Shown one piece after another: positions 4,536 through 10,388 of a stretch of 14,994 nucleotides of DNA. The notes under the pieces were generated by a model, which was not told the DNA's origin, did not search any database, and was given only the letters and a program-made list of their open reading frames with translations. The stretch's first letter is position 1, and the number at the start of each line of letters is the position of its first letter. The DNA lies in contig PCAH01000070.1 of the NCBI GenBank assembly GCA_002730485.1, forward strand, positions 1-14,994, in the 5' to 3' direction. Origin of the DNA: Dehalococcoidia bacterium. GTDB lineage: Bacteria; Chloroflexota; Dehalococcoidia; UBA3495. Both the position numbers and the translations under genes were made by a program.

Positions 4536-4612
4536 GGGGCGTTCGTCTAGCGGCCCAGGACACCGCCCTCTCAAGGCGGAGATCAGGGGTTCAAATCCCC
4601 TACGCCCTACCA
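4536..4612 (+). tRNA. tRNA-Glu (anticodon CTC), CCA encoded
   Basis: A full cloverleaf can be drawn. The acceptor stem GGGGCGT (4536-4542) pairs with ACGCCCT (4602-4608), with one G-U at the end. The D-arm is GTCT/GGAC. The anticodon stem CCGCC/GGCGG (4563-4567, 4575-4579) closes the loop CTCTCAA, with anticodon CTC at 4570-4572. The T-arm is AGGGG-TTCAAAT-CCCCT. The discriminator is A4609 and CCA is at 4610-4612. CTC reads GAG codons. A decayed copy of the 3' half lies 2.2 kb downstream. Confidence 0.97.
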
Positions 4613-4629
4613 AACCACACCGCAACAAA

Positions 4630-4664
4630 AAGCCCCCTGAAACTTCAGGGGGCTTATCTTTTTG
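4630..4664 (+). terminator. Rho-independent terminator of tRNA-Glu
   Basis: AAGCCCCCTGA (4630-4640) pairs perfectly with TCAGGGGGCTT (4645-4655) across a 4-base loop. It is followed by ATCTTTTTG. It lies 18 bases after the CCA end. Confidence 0.94.
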
Positions 4665-4695
4665 TCAGAACTCTACTTATTCAATAAGTTTTGTG

Positions 4696-4723
4696 TTGGC
4701 ATACTCTTACCGTTGTTTAACAT
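4696..4723 (+). promoter_or_regulatory. Candidate promoter of the DUF4145/TM-coil operon
   Basis: TTGGCA (4696-4701, 5/6 match) and TAACAT (4718-4723, 4/6 match) are 16 bases apart. Both lie within the inverted repeat described above, so a protein bound to that repeat would cover the promoter. Transcription would start near 4730, with a leader of about 80 bases. Confidence 0.4.
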
Positions 4724-4736
4724 AACCGTATGCCAA
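4696..4736. repeat. Perfect 9-bp inverted repeat at the left end of the islet
   Basis: TTGGCATAC (4696-4704) and GTATGCCAA (4728-4736) are exact inverse complements 23 bases apart. A second small palindrome, TGTTTAACA (4714-4722), lies centrally between them. The left arm coincides with a candidate -35 box. It could be an operator pair, a hairpin or a recombinase core site. Confidence 0.6.
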
Positions 4737-4811
4737 TGATGCAGCGGGTCAATTGTTGGGGTTGGTGGCTGGGTTAGCGGATTTGGTTGAAGTGAAGGAA
4801 TAAGAGAGGGC

Positions 4812-5270
4812 ATGTCTGTTTTAAAGAACATACTTGAAATCGCAAGATGTCCTCATTGTCAGATTGACACTCCTTCACTCAACGAGTTGGCCAGGGTTAC
4901 AACCAATTCGTCCGACGGTAACACCAAACGATTTTGGGCGTGGTACAAATGCGCGCGGTGCGGTGGGATGGTTTCCGCCTATTCCTGGCAAGATAGCGGG
5001 GAAGTGGAATATGTATCCCCAAGCATGCAGGAAGTAGACGCAGATATTTCGCCAACCGCCAGGGAATACCTAACGCAGGCAATCCAGTCTCTTCACGCTC
5101 CAGCCGGAGCAGTCATGCTGGCAGCAAGCGCCGTCGATGCGATGTTGAAGCACAAAGGTTACCTCGAAGGTAGTCTTTACGTTCGCATTAATGAGGCGAA
5201 AGAAGCCCACTTGATCACCGAAGATATGGCGGAGTGGGCTCATGACATTAGGCTAGACGCAAACGACTAA
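4812..5270 (+). CDS. Zinc-ribbon DUF4145 protein, cut short by an in-frame TAA
   Basis: The protein has 152 residues as read from ATG 4812, which has a GA-rich ribosome site (AGAGAGGG, 4803-4810) very close upstream. The N-terminus has a zinc ribbon: CPHC (Cys13, Cys16) and CARC (Cys47, Cys50). From about residue 78 the sequence PTAREYLTQAIQSL, the ASAVDAMLKHKGY helix, a short LYVRINEA segment and WAHDIRLDAND follow the DUF4145 pattern. In that family the motif normally continues with a polar residue, then xHAD/E, and one or two more helices. DUF4145 domains are common in restriction, abortive-infection and other accessory loci, but their biochemical role is unclear. Reading stops at TAA 5268-5270 in the middle of the conserved motif, and the missing end follows in the same frame. 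The gene is therefore probably a nonsense mutant or recently decayed. Confidence 0.78.
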   Translation: MSVLKNILEIARCPHCQIDTPSLNELARVTTNSSDGNTKRFWAWYKCARCGGMVSAYSWQDSGEVEYVSPSMQEVDADISPTAREYLTQAIQSLHAPAGAVMLAASAVDAMLKHKGYLEGSLYVRINEAKEAHLITEDMAEWAHDIRLDAND

Positions 5271-5420
5271 AGGCACGCCGATGAAGATTCCGAACTTCCG
5301 AATAGTAGAGACGCCCAAAGGTGTATCGACTTCGCTCAGGCATTAGCCCAGTTCTTGTTCGTCCTGCCGGAAAGAGTGAGGCGGGGTAGAAAAACCGCCG
5401 AGTCGACTGAAGGGACCTAG
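5271..5420 (+). pseudogene. Severed C-terminal 49 codons of the DUF4145 gene
   Basis: Immediately after the TAA and in the same frame, 49 sense codons encode RHADEDSELPN, then CIDFAQALAQFLFVLPERV and a basic tail, ending at TAG 5418-5420. This is the expected end of a DUF4145 protein (the HAD/E motif plus a final long helix). A CAA-to-TAA change (one C to T) would explain the stop, since Gln fits the ...ANDQRHAD... context. The restored protein would be about 202 residues, and its stop lies only 5 bases before the next gene's GTG. Confidence 0.75.
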
Positions 5421-5425
5421 AAAAC

Positions 5426-5977
5426 GTGACAGGCGAGAACCCCCAGCTGAACCAGCAAGACCAGTCGACGGGAAAACCGCTTCAGAAGGGGATGAAGTAC
5501 ATCTGGGTCGTTTTCCCAGCGATTATTCTGGCGTGGTTGATTTATTTTTTTGTGGTTGGCAGTGCCATAGAGTCTTGGGGAGCAAGAGGCCAGTTCGGAA
5601 ATATGTTTGGGGCCTTCACAGCCCTTGTCTCAGAATTCGCATTCGCTGGGATTATTTACGCCATAATGTTGCAACGTGAGGACCTTGGCCTACAGCGAGA
5701 GGAACTGAAACTTCAGCGTCATGAACTCGTGCTTCAGCGTCAGGAGCTCGCCCGATCAGCAGAAGCGCAAGAGCAACAAAACGAGGCGCTTCTTCTTACT
5801 GCGAAGTTGAATTCCCATGCTGCCCTGTTGACCTATAACTCAGCCACAAACGATGTATTGGAAGCGAGCAGCATGGAAAGAAATTCTTCGGCGAGTTCAC
5901 GACATGCCCAGGCATTAGAGCAAATTATCGAACGTCTTGACCACCAGTCGGGTGCGGGAGATAAATCCGGAGAGTGA
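5426..5977 (+). CDS. Two-TM protein with perfect-heptad coiled coil, resembles the membrane module of putative AbiC-type proteins
   Basis: The protein has 183 residues from GTG 5426, placed 5 bases after the ancestral end of the DUF4145 frame, so the two were probably translated together. Segments are a polar N-terminus (1-22), TM1 about 24-45, then the motif RGQFGNMFGAFTALVSEFAF leading into TM2 (about 60-82). Four consecutive heptads follow: LQREDLG, LQREELK, LQRHELV and LQRQELA (residues 82-109). After these come a further helical stretch and a charged tail. The order short loop, xGxFGxxFG, TM, LQREEL repeats is typical of many small membrane proteins and of the N-terminal part of putative AbiC phage-abortive-infection proteins. 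The large AbiC domain is absent here. A defence role is an inference. A coiled-coil oligomer tethered at the membrane is the only thing the sequence shows directly. Confidence 0.78.
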   Translation: MTGENPQLNQQDQSTGKPLQKGMKYIWVVFPAIILAWLIYFFVVGSAIESWGARGQFGNMFGAFTALVSEFAFAGIIYAIMLQREDLGLQREELKLQRHELVLQRQELARSAEAQEQQNEALLLTAKLNSHAALLTYNSATNDVLEASSMERNSSASSRHAQALEQIIERLDHQSGAGDKSGE

Positions 5978-5979
5978 GG

Positions 5980-6180
5980 CTAATTTGGGATATGGGCGTT
6001 GGCCGTAAGGATGATGGACGCCCTATCTCGAAGCTCCTGTAATTCTGAAGCTAAATCCTCACGTCTTTTGATTTCGGGGTGAGCGTCTAGAAGGGTCATG
6101 GTTGCCTTCTACATGAAGGCAATCATCTCCCCGCTTAGCTTCGCTTCCTGAATCAGAGAGTCATGTTCTAGTTTCTGAAC
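5980..6180 (-). pseudogene. Decayed minus-strand gene with an in-frame TAG
   Basis: On the minus strand one frame reads 23 codons (6180 down to 6112, with LEHDSLIQEAKLSGEMIAFM), then TAG (6111-6109), then 42 more codons (including MTLLDAHPEIKRRED, ASELQELRDRASIIL and the end NAHIPN) to TAG 5982-5980. Composition on both sides of the internal TAG looks like real helical, charged protein, and no start codon is found upstream. The gene would be convergent with the preceding one, with a 2-base gap between stops. It may be a broken gene, or the last 39 codons from ATG 6099 (AAGG nearby) may survive as a small protein. I do not recognise the family. Confidence 0.5.
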
Positions 6181-6214
6181 CAGATGGAAATCGTAACAAC
6201 AGGAGAGTGAATTA

Positions 6215-6658
6215 ATGGAGGAGTCGGATATCGTTATTGCCGCAATTTCTGCTGGTGTTCCCTCTTTGACTTTTGCCTATTTCGTACTAAAGCACGCCTT
6301 CAAAACAGGGCATCGCCTAACGACCGTCGAGAGCGCACTTAATCCTCTTCCAGAAGCCATGGATCGGTTGAGTCGAATCGAGACGAAGGTAGAAGAAGCG
6401 GTAAACGGGCTCAAGGAACGGATATCAGATCTATTAGTTTTAGTCGGGGCTCCGGGTAATCCCATGTCGCAAGAGAGATGGGAGGAGCTATTAGGGCAAT
6501 TACGGGCCAACACGATTTCTGAGCAAGATGCCGTTTTACTCAATGAAGCGATGCTTGAACGTCAGGAAGAAGCTAAGAATAAGAACGAAGGGTGGGCGCT
6601 GTTAGCGATTGCCGTTGGTCTTGCGTTACTGGCGGTTTATCTAAACAGCAAAGAGTGA
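6215..6658 (+). CDS. Small membrane/coiled-coil protein, unrecognised
   Basis: The protein has 147 residues from ATG 6215, preceded by AGGAGAG (6201-6207). Residues 5-28 form an N-terminal membrane segment (IVIAAISAGVPSLTFAYFVL). Residues 33-78 are a charged amphipathic helix (TTVESALNPLPEAMDRL, then VEEAVNGLKERISDLL). Residues 82-120 are polar, and WALLAIAVGLALLAVYL (about 126-142) is a C-terminal membrane segment with the short tail NSKE. Both ends thus lie at the membrane with a helical middle, reminiscent of small phage, holin-like or accessory membrane proteins. The ribosome site overlaps the upstream end of the decayed minus-strand gene. No family is assigned. Confidence 0.7.
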   Translation: MEESDIVIAAISAGVPSLTFAYFVLKHAFKTGHRLTTVESALNPLPEAMDRLSRIETKVEEAVNGLKERISDLLVLVGAPGNPMSQERWEELLGQLRANTISEQDAVLLNEAMLERQEEAKNKNEGWALLAIAVGLALLAVYLNSKE

Positions 6659-6767
6659 TTTAGGGATTTTTAGGAGGCTCTTGATAACTGCCTTGTCTAA
6701 AAACAGGGATGAAACGCACTAAAGCACACGCCTACAGACACCAGATTTAGTTGGTTTACAAACCCGG

Positions 6768-6815
6768 CCCTCTCTTAAGGCGGAGATCAAGGGCTCAAAT
6801 CCCCAACGCCTACCA
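6768..6815 (+). pseudogene. Decayed 3' half of tRNA-Glu
   Basis: By eye, about 43 of 49 aligned columns match tRNA-Glu from CCCTCTC (4566) to its CCA end. Differences are two extra T in the anticodon loop, a broken T-stem (AAGGG against CCCCA) and one missing acceptor base. Weaker similarity continues for about 30 bases past CCA (CACCGCA-TAAAAAGG), where the terminator of the intact tRNA would be, and faintly upstream into the D-arm. It cannot fold into a functional tRNA. Confidence 0.75.
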
Positions 6816-6884
6816 GCCTCACCGCATAAAAAGGCTTCCGGAAATTCCAAAGGTTTACTAACGCCTAGGCGTCACCAACACCCC

Positions 6885-6890
6885 TATAAT
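6885..6890 (+). promoter_or_regulatory. Consensus -10 box upstream of the HAD gene
   Basis: A perfect TATAAT lies 44 bases before the ATG at 6935. No good -35 is seen at 16-18 bases; TTTACT (6854-6859) is too far away. The leader is very rich in C and A (CAACACCACCAACACCC), and AGGAG (6915-6919) sits 15 bases from the start, which is long. Confidence 0.35.
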
Positions 6891-6934
6891 ACCCAAACAA
6901 CACCACCAACACCCAGGAGCAAACCAACAAAGCA

Positions 6935-7636
6935 ATGACTCATGCGATAGACACAGTGATCTTTGACCTTGATGGGACTTTGGTTGATAGCCAGCCGGCG
7001 GCGCTGGGGGCGACCATCCAGGCTTTGTCCCAGTTTGGGAATGTGGCCACCGAAGCCGAGTTGAGGGTGGTTTTTGGCGGTGGGGCTCGTAAGCTTCTGA
7101 ATCACTTCTTGGAGCGGGATCTGGGTTCAGAACGGGCCGCAGAGGTGCTGGAGGATGCGATCAAGTCCCGGGCCGCCTTGCAGTTGGATCTCACCGGCAA
7201 GGTGGAGCTGCTGCCCAAGGTGAAAGAACTGCTCGCTTTGTTGCAGGACAAAAAATACAGACTTGCGGTTGCCACCATGAGCAGCGGGGCGGTGGTGGAC
7301 AGCGTCTTGAGCCATCACGGGATTCGGGACAACTTCGACGCTGTTTTGACCATCGGTGACGTGACCCAGGGCAAGCCCGACCCGGAGATCCTGGTCAAGA
7401 CCGTTGACCGGTTGGGCGGAGCGGTCAACAACTCCCTGTACGTCGGCGATTCCAGCCACGATATGGAGGCCTCGGTCAGCATCGGGATGCCGTTCCTGCT
7501 GGTGGACTCGGAGCTATACGTCAGAGGCGATGCCAGGGATAAACTCCGGTCAGAAGCCGAGCAGAACGGGTTTCCTATCGTCGGGTTTGATGAGATCTTG
7601 AACATCGCTGAAGTCGTTAAACAACGCTCTGCCTAA
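6935..7636 (+). CDS. HAD-superfamily phosphatase, phosphoglycolate phosphatase-like
   Basis: The protein has 233 residues. All four HAD motifs are present: DLDGT (nucleophile Asp11, acid/base Asp13), the motif II Thr114 in VATMSSG, Lys147 in GKPDPE, and GDSSHDM with Asp172 and Asp176 for magnesium. The inserted helical segment at about 18-90 is a C1 cap, as in phosphoglycolate phosphatase (Gph), beta-phosphoglucomutase and PpaX-type enzymes. The substrate is most likely a small sugar or organic phosphate, and the cap does not allow a finer call. The protein has no signal peptide and should be cytosolic. The stop TAA (7634-7636) overlaps the stop of the convergent minus-strand gene. Confidence 0.9.
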   Translation: MTHAIDTVIFDLDGTLVDSQPAALGATIQALSQFGNVATEAELRVVFGGGARKLLNHFLERDLGSERAAEVLEDAIKSRAALQLDLTGKVELLPKVKELLALLQDKKYRLAVATMSSGAVVDSVLSHHGIRDNFDAVLTIGDVTQGKPDPEILVKTVDRLGGAVNNSLYVGDSSHDMEASVSIGMPFLLVDSELYVRGDARDKLRSEAEQNGFPIVGFDEILNIAEVVKQRSA

Positions 7637-8849: not shown

Positions 8850-10388
8850 ATGATCAACCTCGCGCGTCTGACACAGATCCGCATCGAATCCCTGGCCGGA
8901 CTCACCGTCGCCCTGGCTCTGGTTCCAGAGGCTGTGGCCTTTGCCTTCGTCGTGGGTGTCCATCCGCTGGTGGGCCTTTACGCTGCATTCATCGTTGGGC
9001 TGATAACTGCCATGACCGGCGGCCGCCCGGGCATGATCTCCGGCGCCACCGGGTCCCTTGCCGTGGTCATGGTGTCACTGGTCAGCGAAAACGGCATCGA
9101 ATACCTGTTCATCACCGTGGTGGCCATGGGTGTGATCCAGGTGGCCGTAGGTGCCTTACGACTGGGTAACCTGATCCGCATGGTGCCCTTCCCAGTGATG
9201 CTCGGGTTTGTGAACGGACTTGCCATCGTCATCGGGTTGGCCCAGCTGGAGAGCTTCAAAGTAGAGAACCATGACGGTACCCACTCTTGGCTGCCATTGG
9301 ACGAACTGGGACTGATGATCGGCCTGATCGCCGTGACGATGTCCGTGATCTACCTAGTGCCAAGGCTGTCCAAACGAGTACCGGCCGCTCTGGTCGGAAT
9401 AGTCGTGGTTTCAACCATAGTGATCCTAGGTGGTATCAATACGCCCACAGTTGGCGATCTGGCCAGCATCTCAGGCGGCCTGCCCGAGTTCTCGGTCCCA
9501 GACGTCCCCTGGAACCTGGAGACCGTCAGGATCGTCCTGCCCTTCGCCTTCATCCTGGCCGGAATCGGTCTGATCGAATCGTTGCTCACCCTTTCGCTAA
9601 TCGACGGCATCATCGAGACCAGGGGCCAGAAGAACCGGGAATGCATGTCTCAAGGTCTGGCCAACGTGGTCACCGGCTTCTTTGGTGGTATGGGCGGCTG
9701 CGCCATGATTGGTCAGAGCATGATCAACATCAAATCGGGCGCGCGGATGCGGCTTTCCGGAATCCTGGCGACGCTATTCTTGCTGCTATTCATACTGTTC
9801 GCATCGTCGCTGATCGAGCAGATTCCCATCGCTGCCCTGGTCGGTGTGATGTTCGTGGTGGTCGTTGGGACGTTCTCCTGGTCCAGTCTGCGGATCATCC
9901 GCAAAGTACCGATCTCCGACGCTCTGGTTATGGTCATCGTTTCAGCGGTTACAGTGGCAACGGACCTGGCCATCGCCGTAATCGTTGGAGTGATCGTGTC
10001 GGCCCTGGTGTTGGCCTGGAAGACGGCACGTCATATCTATGTCAGCCCTGGTTTTGGAACCACTCTGCACCGGCAGGTCTACAACCTCCACGGTCAGCTT
10101 TGCTTCGCCTCGGTTAGCACCTTCCGCGACCTGTTCGATCCTGCGGCGGACTCTCCGGAAGTGGTCATCGATTTCGGCAACTCCCGGGTCTGGGACCACT
10201 CAGGGCTGGAGGCGATCGTTGACCTAGCCCAGCGGTATGATCGCGCTGGTACCAGGTTGCACCTGCTGAACCTGAGTGAGAACTGCCAGGACATGCTCCA
10301 TAAAGCGAATGTCATCGCTCCACCAGACAGCACCTTTGAAGACTCCAGTTACCGGGTCACGATTTCAGATTTGGGAGAGACTGATTAG
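8850..10388 (+). CDS. SulP-family anion transporter with C-terminal STAS domain (possible bicarbonate or sulfate transporter)
   Basis: The protein has 512 residues. The N-terminal signature LVPEAVAFAFVVGVHPLVGLYAAF, then the GSTGALAV-equivalent SGATGSLAVVM, and about 12-14 hydrophobic segments up to residue 395 define the SLC26/SulP membrane domain. Residues about 405-505 form a STAS domain with the conserved DHSGLEAI (Ser-containing) turn. The stretch FFGGMGGCAMIGQSMINI resembles that of BicA/YbaR-type members, so sodium-dependent bicarbonate uptake is plausible. Sulfate or other anions cannot be excluded. The protein is slightly shorter than typical BicA because the STAS part is compact. 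It appears monocistronic, with a terminator downstream. Confidence 0.92.
   Translation: MINLARLTQIRIESLAGLTVALALVPEAVAFAFVVGVHPLVGLYAAFIVGLITAMTGGRPGMISGATGSLAVVMVSLVSENGIEYLFITVVAMGVIQVAVGALRLGNLIRMVPFPVMLGFVNGLAIVIGLAQLESFKVENHDGTHSWLPLDELGLMIGLIAVTMSVIYLVPRLSKRVPAALVGIVVVSTIVILGGINTPTVGDLASISGGLPEFSVPDVPWNLETVRIVLPFAFILAGIGLIESLLTLSLIDGIIETRGQKNRECMSQGLANVVTGFFGGMGGCAMIGQSMINIKSGARMRLSGILATLFLLLFILFASSLIEQIPIAALVGVMFVVVVGTFSWSSLRIIRKVPISDALVMVIVSAVTVATDLAIAVIVGVIVSALVLAWKTARHIYVSPGFGTTLHRQVYNLHGQLCFASVSTFRDLFDPAADSPEVVIDFGNSRVWDHSGLEAIVDLAQRYDRAGTRLHLLNLSENCQDMLHKANVIAPPDSTFEDSSYRVTISDLGETD

Follow-up and report, generated by a model that had tools for sequence, protein, structure and literature searches.

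A decaying, integrase-less islet behind tRNA-Glu(CTC) in a marine relative of SAR202, a probable remnant of a small integrative element

We have analysed a stretch of 14,994 nucleotides (hereafter the window; positions 1 to 14,994 of contig PCAH01000070.1, assembly GCA_002730485.1, Dehalococcoidia bacterium) from a marine relative of the SAR202 group. In it, an islet of about 2.1 kb (4613-6761) separates an intact tRNA-Glu(CTC) gene from a decayed copy of the 3' half of the same gene. We conclude that the islet is very probably the decaying remnant, now devoid of an integrase, of a small integrative element inserted in the 3' half of tRNA-Glu(CTC). A sequence-only reading of the window had proposed a degrading element at this tRNA 3' end, and the half-copy, the empty sites of relatives, the low guanine-plus-cytosine (GC) content of the islet, the rarity of its genes and the broken state of its first open reading frame (ORF) all argue for it. 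The boundaries of the islet and its first neighbour are as follows:

4536-4612, plus strand: intact tRNA-Glu(CTC), left junction of the islet (ARAGORN; Rfam tRNA model, matching 4536-4609).
4630-4655, plus strand: terminator hairpin of the intact tRNA (perfect 12-nt inverted repeat, fold z -5.41).
6762-6815, plus strand: right boundary of the islet, formed by a displaced and decayed copy of positions 25-77 of tRNA-Glu (47 identities in the alignment).
6816-6847, plus strand: decayed terminator region 3' of the half-copy (alignment to the terminator of the intact tRNA; fold z -0.52).
6935-7636, plus strand: gene for a HAD-type hydrolase, first neighbour past the islet (PF13419, E 3.4e-34).

ARAGORN calls a single tRNA gene in the window, this tRNA-Glu(CTC), exactly where the sequence-only reading had placed it, and makes no call at the half-copy. 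That reading had also noticed a repeat at 6768-6815 with about 43 of 49 columns matching; the repeat is real, but its extent is the longer one listed above. With the bases 3' of CCA included, the local match extends, more weakly, to 6847 and scores 49.5. Dinucleotide shuffles of 4681-6935 (n = 300) average 14.5 and never exceed 25.0, which places the match far above chance. In the remaining window the best scores of the tRNA-Glu query are 18.0 and 20.5, one per strand. As in tDNA-integrated islands, the end of the islet opposite the intact tRNA bears a displaced piece of that gene in like orientation.

A search with the HAD protein retrieved six loci, three of them close (L001, L002 and L003, at 73-75% identity) and belonging to metagenome-assembled genomes of a SAR202 cluster bacterium (L001, L003) and a Dehalococcoidia bacterium (L002); the distant HAD relatives L004-L006, L011 and L012 were left out of the comparison. 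In L001 and L003 the site is empty: a thiL-type gene, a cupredoxin gene and tRNA-Glu are followed, after a short interval, by the same HAD gene, which is the arrangement that the sequence-only reading had named as support for an insertion. There, tRNA and HAD are separated by 144 bp (L001) and 312 bp (L003); between relic and HAD the window has 119 bp, and L040, a locus with a half-copy of its own, has 123 bp.

The tRNA-Glu query matched 45 of 50 genomes of one family, and four half-copies lie on a contig with tRNA-Glu(CTC) in three of them (G042, G048 and, with two, G003, the second of which was found by a more sensitive search). This count leaves out matches that belong to tRNA-Asp (G004:C53, G005:C187, G007:C536, G008:C18, G016:C7, G023:C1, G042:C25) or to tRNA-Glu(TTC) (G032:C7, G049:C180 and G050, 337468), two pieces in G040:C11 that are one tRNA split by N, the partial matches in G037 (two), G038 (two), G005:C116 and G027:C45, as well as some nine short and weak ones (E >1e-5), most of which align with the terminator part of the query or with its 3' end.

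A cupredoxin gene stands beside tRNA-Glu in 12 of the 30 loci scanned (L001, L003, L040-L045, L048, L049, L051, L056), and what follows the tRNA on its 3' side in these 12 varies: a whole or frame-broken integrase (L041, L042, L043, L051), an integrase remnant (L048, 80% over 49 residues), a half-copy without integrase (L040, L045), HAD (L001, L003), a duplication (L056), or only TTGCAACC repeats (L044, L049). The lack of an integrase, which the sequence-only reading had held against an insertion, is true of the islet itself; as an objection it loses force, with integrases or a remnant at the same tRNA in five of the 12 loci. The L040 islet holds a gene that is permease-like by eye, whose protein is matched by no Pfam or NCBIfam model. 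In L045, SulP lies ahead of the half-copy and a TIR gene behind it, and in L003 HAD is followed by two tRNA-Glu half-copies that flank an integrase remnant (79% over 75 residues). PADLOC assigns a 397-aa protein of L003 to PDC-S54 (E 2.6e-67) and a protein of L045 to TIR-TM (E 1.6e-52), and finds none or weak matches for five other non-reference hotspot proteins (298-aa, 202-aa, 316-aa and leucine-rich-repeat ones among them).

In the four loci with a whole or frame-broken integrase the elements share one layout: tRNA-Glu, a terminator, one or two TTGCAACC repeats within ~60 bp, a small cargo gene, the integrase, which is 3' of tRNA-Glu and convergent with it (tail-to-tail), and a protein of ~298-303 aa. 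The L042 integrase carries PF00589 together with SAM-like and arm-binding domains, and the TTGCAACC repeats are presumably integrase arm sites. Its ~298-303-aa partner has no Pfam match (the L042 copy is cut by the contig end); 6 of 247 genomes of the order encode it. Four of these copies adjoin a tRNA-Glu integrase, and the other two are found in G062:C126, beside a different integrase of the family, and in G041. Where both ends can be placed, elements measure ~2.3 kb (L003, between the half-copies) and ~3.2 kb (L043, measured from the tRNA up to a left end, as judged by eye, of a second element).

The islet differs from its surroundings in composition; the sequence-only reading had already seen its genes as small and of accessory type. 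Its GC content is 0.491, versus at least 0.539 (mean 0.561) in all 169 overlapping flank segments of equal length, and GC at third codon positions is 0.48-0.54 in ORFs A-C versus 0.63-0.77 in five flanking genes. Its genes are the following:

4812-5270, plus strand: ORF A, a weak zinc-ribbon-like N-terminus and a DUF4145 domain, truncated by an in-frame stop (PF13643, E 9.8e-07, passing the model's cut-off; phrog_1305, E 6.2e-17).
5271-5420, plus strand: C-terminal leftover of ORF A, in the same frame beyond the stop (72% identity over 47 residues to residues 154-200 of P0028).
5426-5977, plus strand: ORF B, a hydrophobic N-terminal module and a coiled-coil-like stretch, common to the N-terminus of putative AbiC (PF16872) proteins.
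6215-6658, plus strand: ORF C, a small, near-orphan ORF of membrane type (one homologue besides itself, P0148, at 38%).

ORF A runs for 152 aa to its stop, its homologues (among the 120 listed) being mostly of ~200 aa, and the reading frames of ORFs B and C are open, so that the genes of the islet are indeed broken in part. ORF B is without the C-terminal domain of the PF16872 proteins that share its N-terminal module, and the PF16872 model itself does not match it in the Pfam scan; one protein of that type which shares the module, P0021, matches the PADLOC models AbiP and AbiC. Relatives of ORF A were found in 2 of 247 genomes of the order (E<=1e-15) and relatives of ORF C in 2 of 250 (E<=1e-5); four short loci of the order that carry relatives of islet genes contain no tRNA by ARAGORN. 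Since PADLOC gives ORFs A-C no match better than E 0.014, an anti-phage role of the cargo in the window is only a guess.

Taken from the sequences, the history of the islet is probably as follows. Site-specific recombination would have placed a small element in the 3' half of tRNA-Glu(CTC), most likely through a tyrosine integrase of the kind found at tRNA-Glu in relatives. Its attachment site would have carried a replacement tRNA 3' half with a terminator of its own, so that the tRNA stayed functional and the 3' half of today's intact gene would be the one that came with the element. The original 3' half and its terminator would have been displaced to the far end and would have decayed there without selection. 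The integrase and the nearby recombination sites would have been deleted later, and what remains may be cargo of accessory type, perhaps partly anti-phage, which is itself decaying. The islet is probably no longer mobile and, having no integrase, is to be filed as an island remnant and not as a complete island.

The terminators behind the tRNA copies fit such an exchange. Folding was computed for eight post-CCA stretches, six at the tRNA-Glu locus of relatives and two in the window, and z was -3.5 or lower in 6 of 8, the exceptions being the half-copy of the window and the intact tRNA of L040 (0.13). Values were -3.73 and -5.23 behind the tRNAs of L001 and L003, -4.10 behind the L040 half-copy, and -3.50 and -5.63 behind those of L003. 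Whole tRNAs and half-copies alike are thus usually followed by a terminator, as would be expected if incoming DNA brings a tRNA 3' half together with its terminator. The post-CCA DNA of the intact tRNA in the window scores highest with the integrase-bearing loci L051 (26.5) and L041 (24.5), which suggests, without proving it, that its terminator derives from an element. The terminator of the L040 half-copy is closest to the empty site of L003 (22.0), which is what an ancestral origin of the displaced copy would lead one to expect.

Several observations weigh against this account. The post-CCA DNA of the window scores 22.5 with the empty site of L003, nearly as much as with the element loci. 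The 119 bp between relic and HAD do not align above chance with the empty sites L001 (10.0, shuffle mean 10.1) and L003 (12.5, 95th percentile 13.0), and the score with L040 is 8.0 (mean 8.6); the right flank of the islet is therefore defined by gene order and distance. In L003 itself the half-copies lie behind HAD and the intact tRNA in front of it, of which a simple insertion gives no account. The rarity of ORF B, with relatives in none of 250 genomes of the order (E<=1e-6), comes from a search run without a positive control. Finally, the islet shows neither a trace of the integrase (best E 0.93 by tblastn and 1.2 by profile, on which an integrase remnant inside it was rejected) nor repeats of the TTGCAACC type, so that its tie to that integrase family is by site only.

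These last absences invite the idea that the islet never had an integrase of its own, and was a cassette of cargo between tRNA-Glu halves that the integrases of co-resident elements moved in trans. The L040 islet, in which an integrase trace was likewise not found, speaks for it, as do two published systems: Dehalococcoides islands without an integration module lie between attachment repeats (PMC3146451), and additive islands with tRNA-Lys repeats, from 330 bp upwards, are described in Methylophilaceae (PMC10872708). However, the TTGCAACC-type direct repeats are missing behind the tRNA terminator in L040 as well as in the window, and the integrase would probably not recognise the left end in its present state. 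Also, the integrase remnants of L003 and L048 show that loss by decay occurs at this locus. We give the cassette only a slim chance.

The sequence-only reading had left room for another origin, a segmental duplication in which tRNA-Glu and its terminator were doubled, one copy decayed and other DNA was inserted between the two later. The likeness that it saw past CCA does continue into the terminator: the 60 nt behind the two copies of the window score 15.0 with each other, versus a 95th percentile of 9.5 and a maximum of 12.0 in 500 shuffled pairs, a similarity that is real but modest. There is also a precedent, since in L056 (8900-10600; G035) the cupredoxin gene and tRNA-Glu are doubled as a unit, the second tRNA being decayed over its whole length with a terminator-like hairpin behind it. 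As an objection to insertion, however, the similarity past CCA loses weight, half-copies in relatives usually having a terminator too. A duplication predicts a 5' half, and we compared the 40 bases preceding each half-copy match with tRNA positions 1-24. In the true duplication of L056, which served as positive control, the 5' half was detected (17/25 identities, P 0.001), whereas the window has no trace of it (3/24 identical, P 0.46), nor was it found at L040 (P 0.61), at the two L003 half-copies (A, 0.90; B, 0.22) or at L045 (0.23). The matches start at tRNA position 25 in the window and L040, at 30 and 29 in L003 and at 41 in L045; the L040 half-copy, though well kept (92% identity), is bounded at positions 25-77. 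Single-tRNA empty sites exist in relatives besides. The absent 5' half largely refutes the duplication, which we regard as very improbable. Chance or convergent similarity, with the islet a mere variable intergenic region, has a practically negligible probability and was rejected, the match exceeding the maximum of all 300 shuffles almost twofold and a half-copy in the same orientation recurring at the same locus in L040, with others in L003 and L045.

Among known systems, an insertion at tRNA-Glu(CTC) has its closest counterparts in the tRNA and tmRNA islands of the Islander collection, in which, by the published description, an end with the intact target tRNA faces one with a displaced 3' fragment of it (PMC4383910). 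There, 3' fragments account for 3760 of 3919 islands and 5'-fragment islands are rare (159/3919); 2083 of 3919 have anticodon-type sites, which the islet resembles in that its fragment begins ahead of the anticodon loop. Unlike those islands, whose sizes peak at 13.6 and 39.9 kbp, the islet is of ~2.1 kb and without an integrase. The ssrA islands of Dehalococcoides, whose hosts are relatives at the level of the class Dehalococcoidia, are described as lying in tandem behind an RNA gene and carrying repeats of the 3' end of that gene; an integration module is missing from about half of them (15 without, 16 with; PMC3146451). They use tmRNA as target and a serine recombinase as enzyme. The islet, which sits at tRNA-Glu, where relatives have tyrosine recombinases matching PF00589, does not belong to those ssrA-specific islands; in the islet, serine recombinases were covered by the Pfam scans of its ORFs. 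Additive islands and tycheposons, compared by description, also have variable cargo behind a tRNA gene (PMC10872708). The former, in Methylophilaceae, are very short and share the repeated tRNA 3' fragments, their tRNA-Lys repeats being of 20 nt; the latter, unlike the islet, span 4-200 kbp and carry a recombinase. Fragments of tRNA genes left by integration are, moreover, a recognised annotation problem (PMC9897764).

The kind of element to which the islet belongs, a remnant of a tRNA-integrated island, is well known, and the islet itself is ordinary. More interesting is the SAR202 hotspot, with its small elements, ~298-aa partner and some anti-phage-like cargo: the tRNA-Glu site of an uncultured marine lineage is mapped as an integration hotspot, which relatives show in empty, occupied and decaying states, and it points to an integrase family and an uncharacterised ~298-aa partner that are open to study. 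Among the literature matches listed, from a search whose coverage left most subscription journals outside, we found neither tRNA-targeted integrative elements in SAR202 nor the ~298-aa partner. One may speculate further that tRNA-Glu(CTC) is an integron-like loading dock in SAR202-type bacteria, where small elements (integrase, ~298-aa partner and one or two cargo genes, ~2.3-3.2 kb) and integrase-less cassettes like the islet stack, each bringing the 3' half of a tRNA with its terminator, so that the bacteria are provided with a shifting repertoire of genes, anti-phage ones included. We consider this picture unlikely, if worth keeping in mind.

The integrase family is not confined to tRNA-Glu. 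It was found in 52 of 247 genomes of the order (E<=1e-40), and in 24 of 30 loci fetched a tRNA was called. Of the nine that score best, six have tRNA-Glu(CTC), L070 has it split by N, and two that lie close to a contig edge have no tRNA; at the remaining loci the tRNA called is one for Ser, Trp, Lys, Ala, Arg, Gly, Leu, Ile, Thr or Tyr. The integrase is 3' of the tRNA and convergent in 17 of the 24, and on the 5' side in the other seven (L078, L085, L086, L087, L091, L092, L094), five of which are at Ser, Leu or Tyr tRNAs. The DNA covered shows no displaced 5' fragment at these seven, and displaced fragments at 20 other integrase loci amount to one weak match (L104).

Some minor observations concern the window. 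On the minus strand, its terminator region is matched by the Rfam models His_leader and RcsR1, in both cases under the gathering score. In a phage database 175 records matched, the 20 listed aligning over roughly the tRNA alone (2-3% of the query), in a stretch annotated as tRNA-Glu in 12 of them. Homology of the DNA past the tRNA terminator with 11 other stretches was rejected, the best P (0.01, L045; the rest 0.06-0.95) failing correction. In that region, between the terminator and ORF A, an imperfect inverted repeat (TTGGCATACTCTTA / TAACCGTATGCCAA, 4696-4736) is perhaps an operator or promoter region, and between ORFs B and C a minus-strand frame with one internal stop (5979-6213) could be a decayed gene.

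Others concern the relatives. A pattern scan of viral contigs gave two, L067 and L068, each with a tRNA-like stretch. In L003 (10690-15611) the second half-copy is followed by a leucine-rich-repeat gene and by a small gene of membrane type. The assembly of L051 breaks (9328-9730; G040) at a run of N inside tRNA-Glu, with a 5-base overlap at the flanks; an intron was rejected, the gap being that run, and the break possibly stems from coexisting empty and filled sites in the sample. At L043 (13370-13622) a short ORF, excisionase-like (AlpA-like) by eye, runs into what resembles the left end of a second element, with terminator and TTGCAACC repeat, as if a deletion had fused two elements. Finally, 3' of tRNA-Glu in the distant integrase loci L108, L077 and L109, short direct-repeat pairs of the GCTAAC or GCTAATC type can be seen by eye ~11 bp apart, which suggests a family-wide layout of arm sites.

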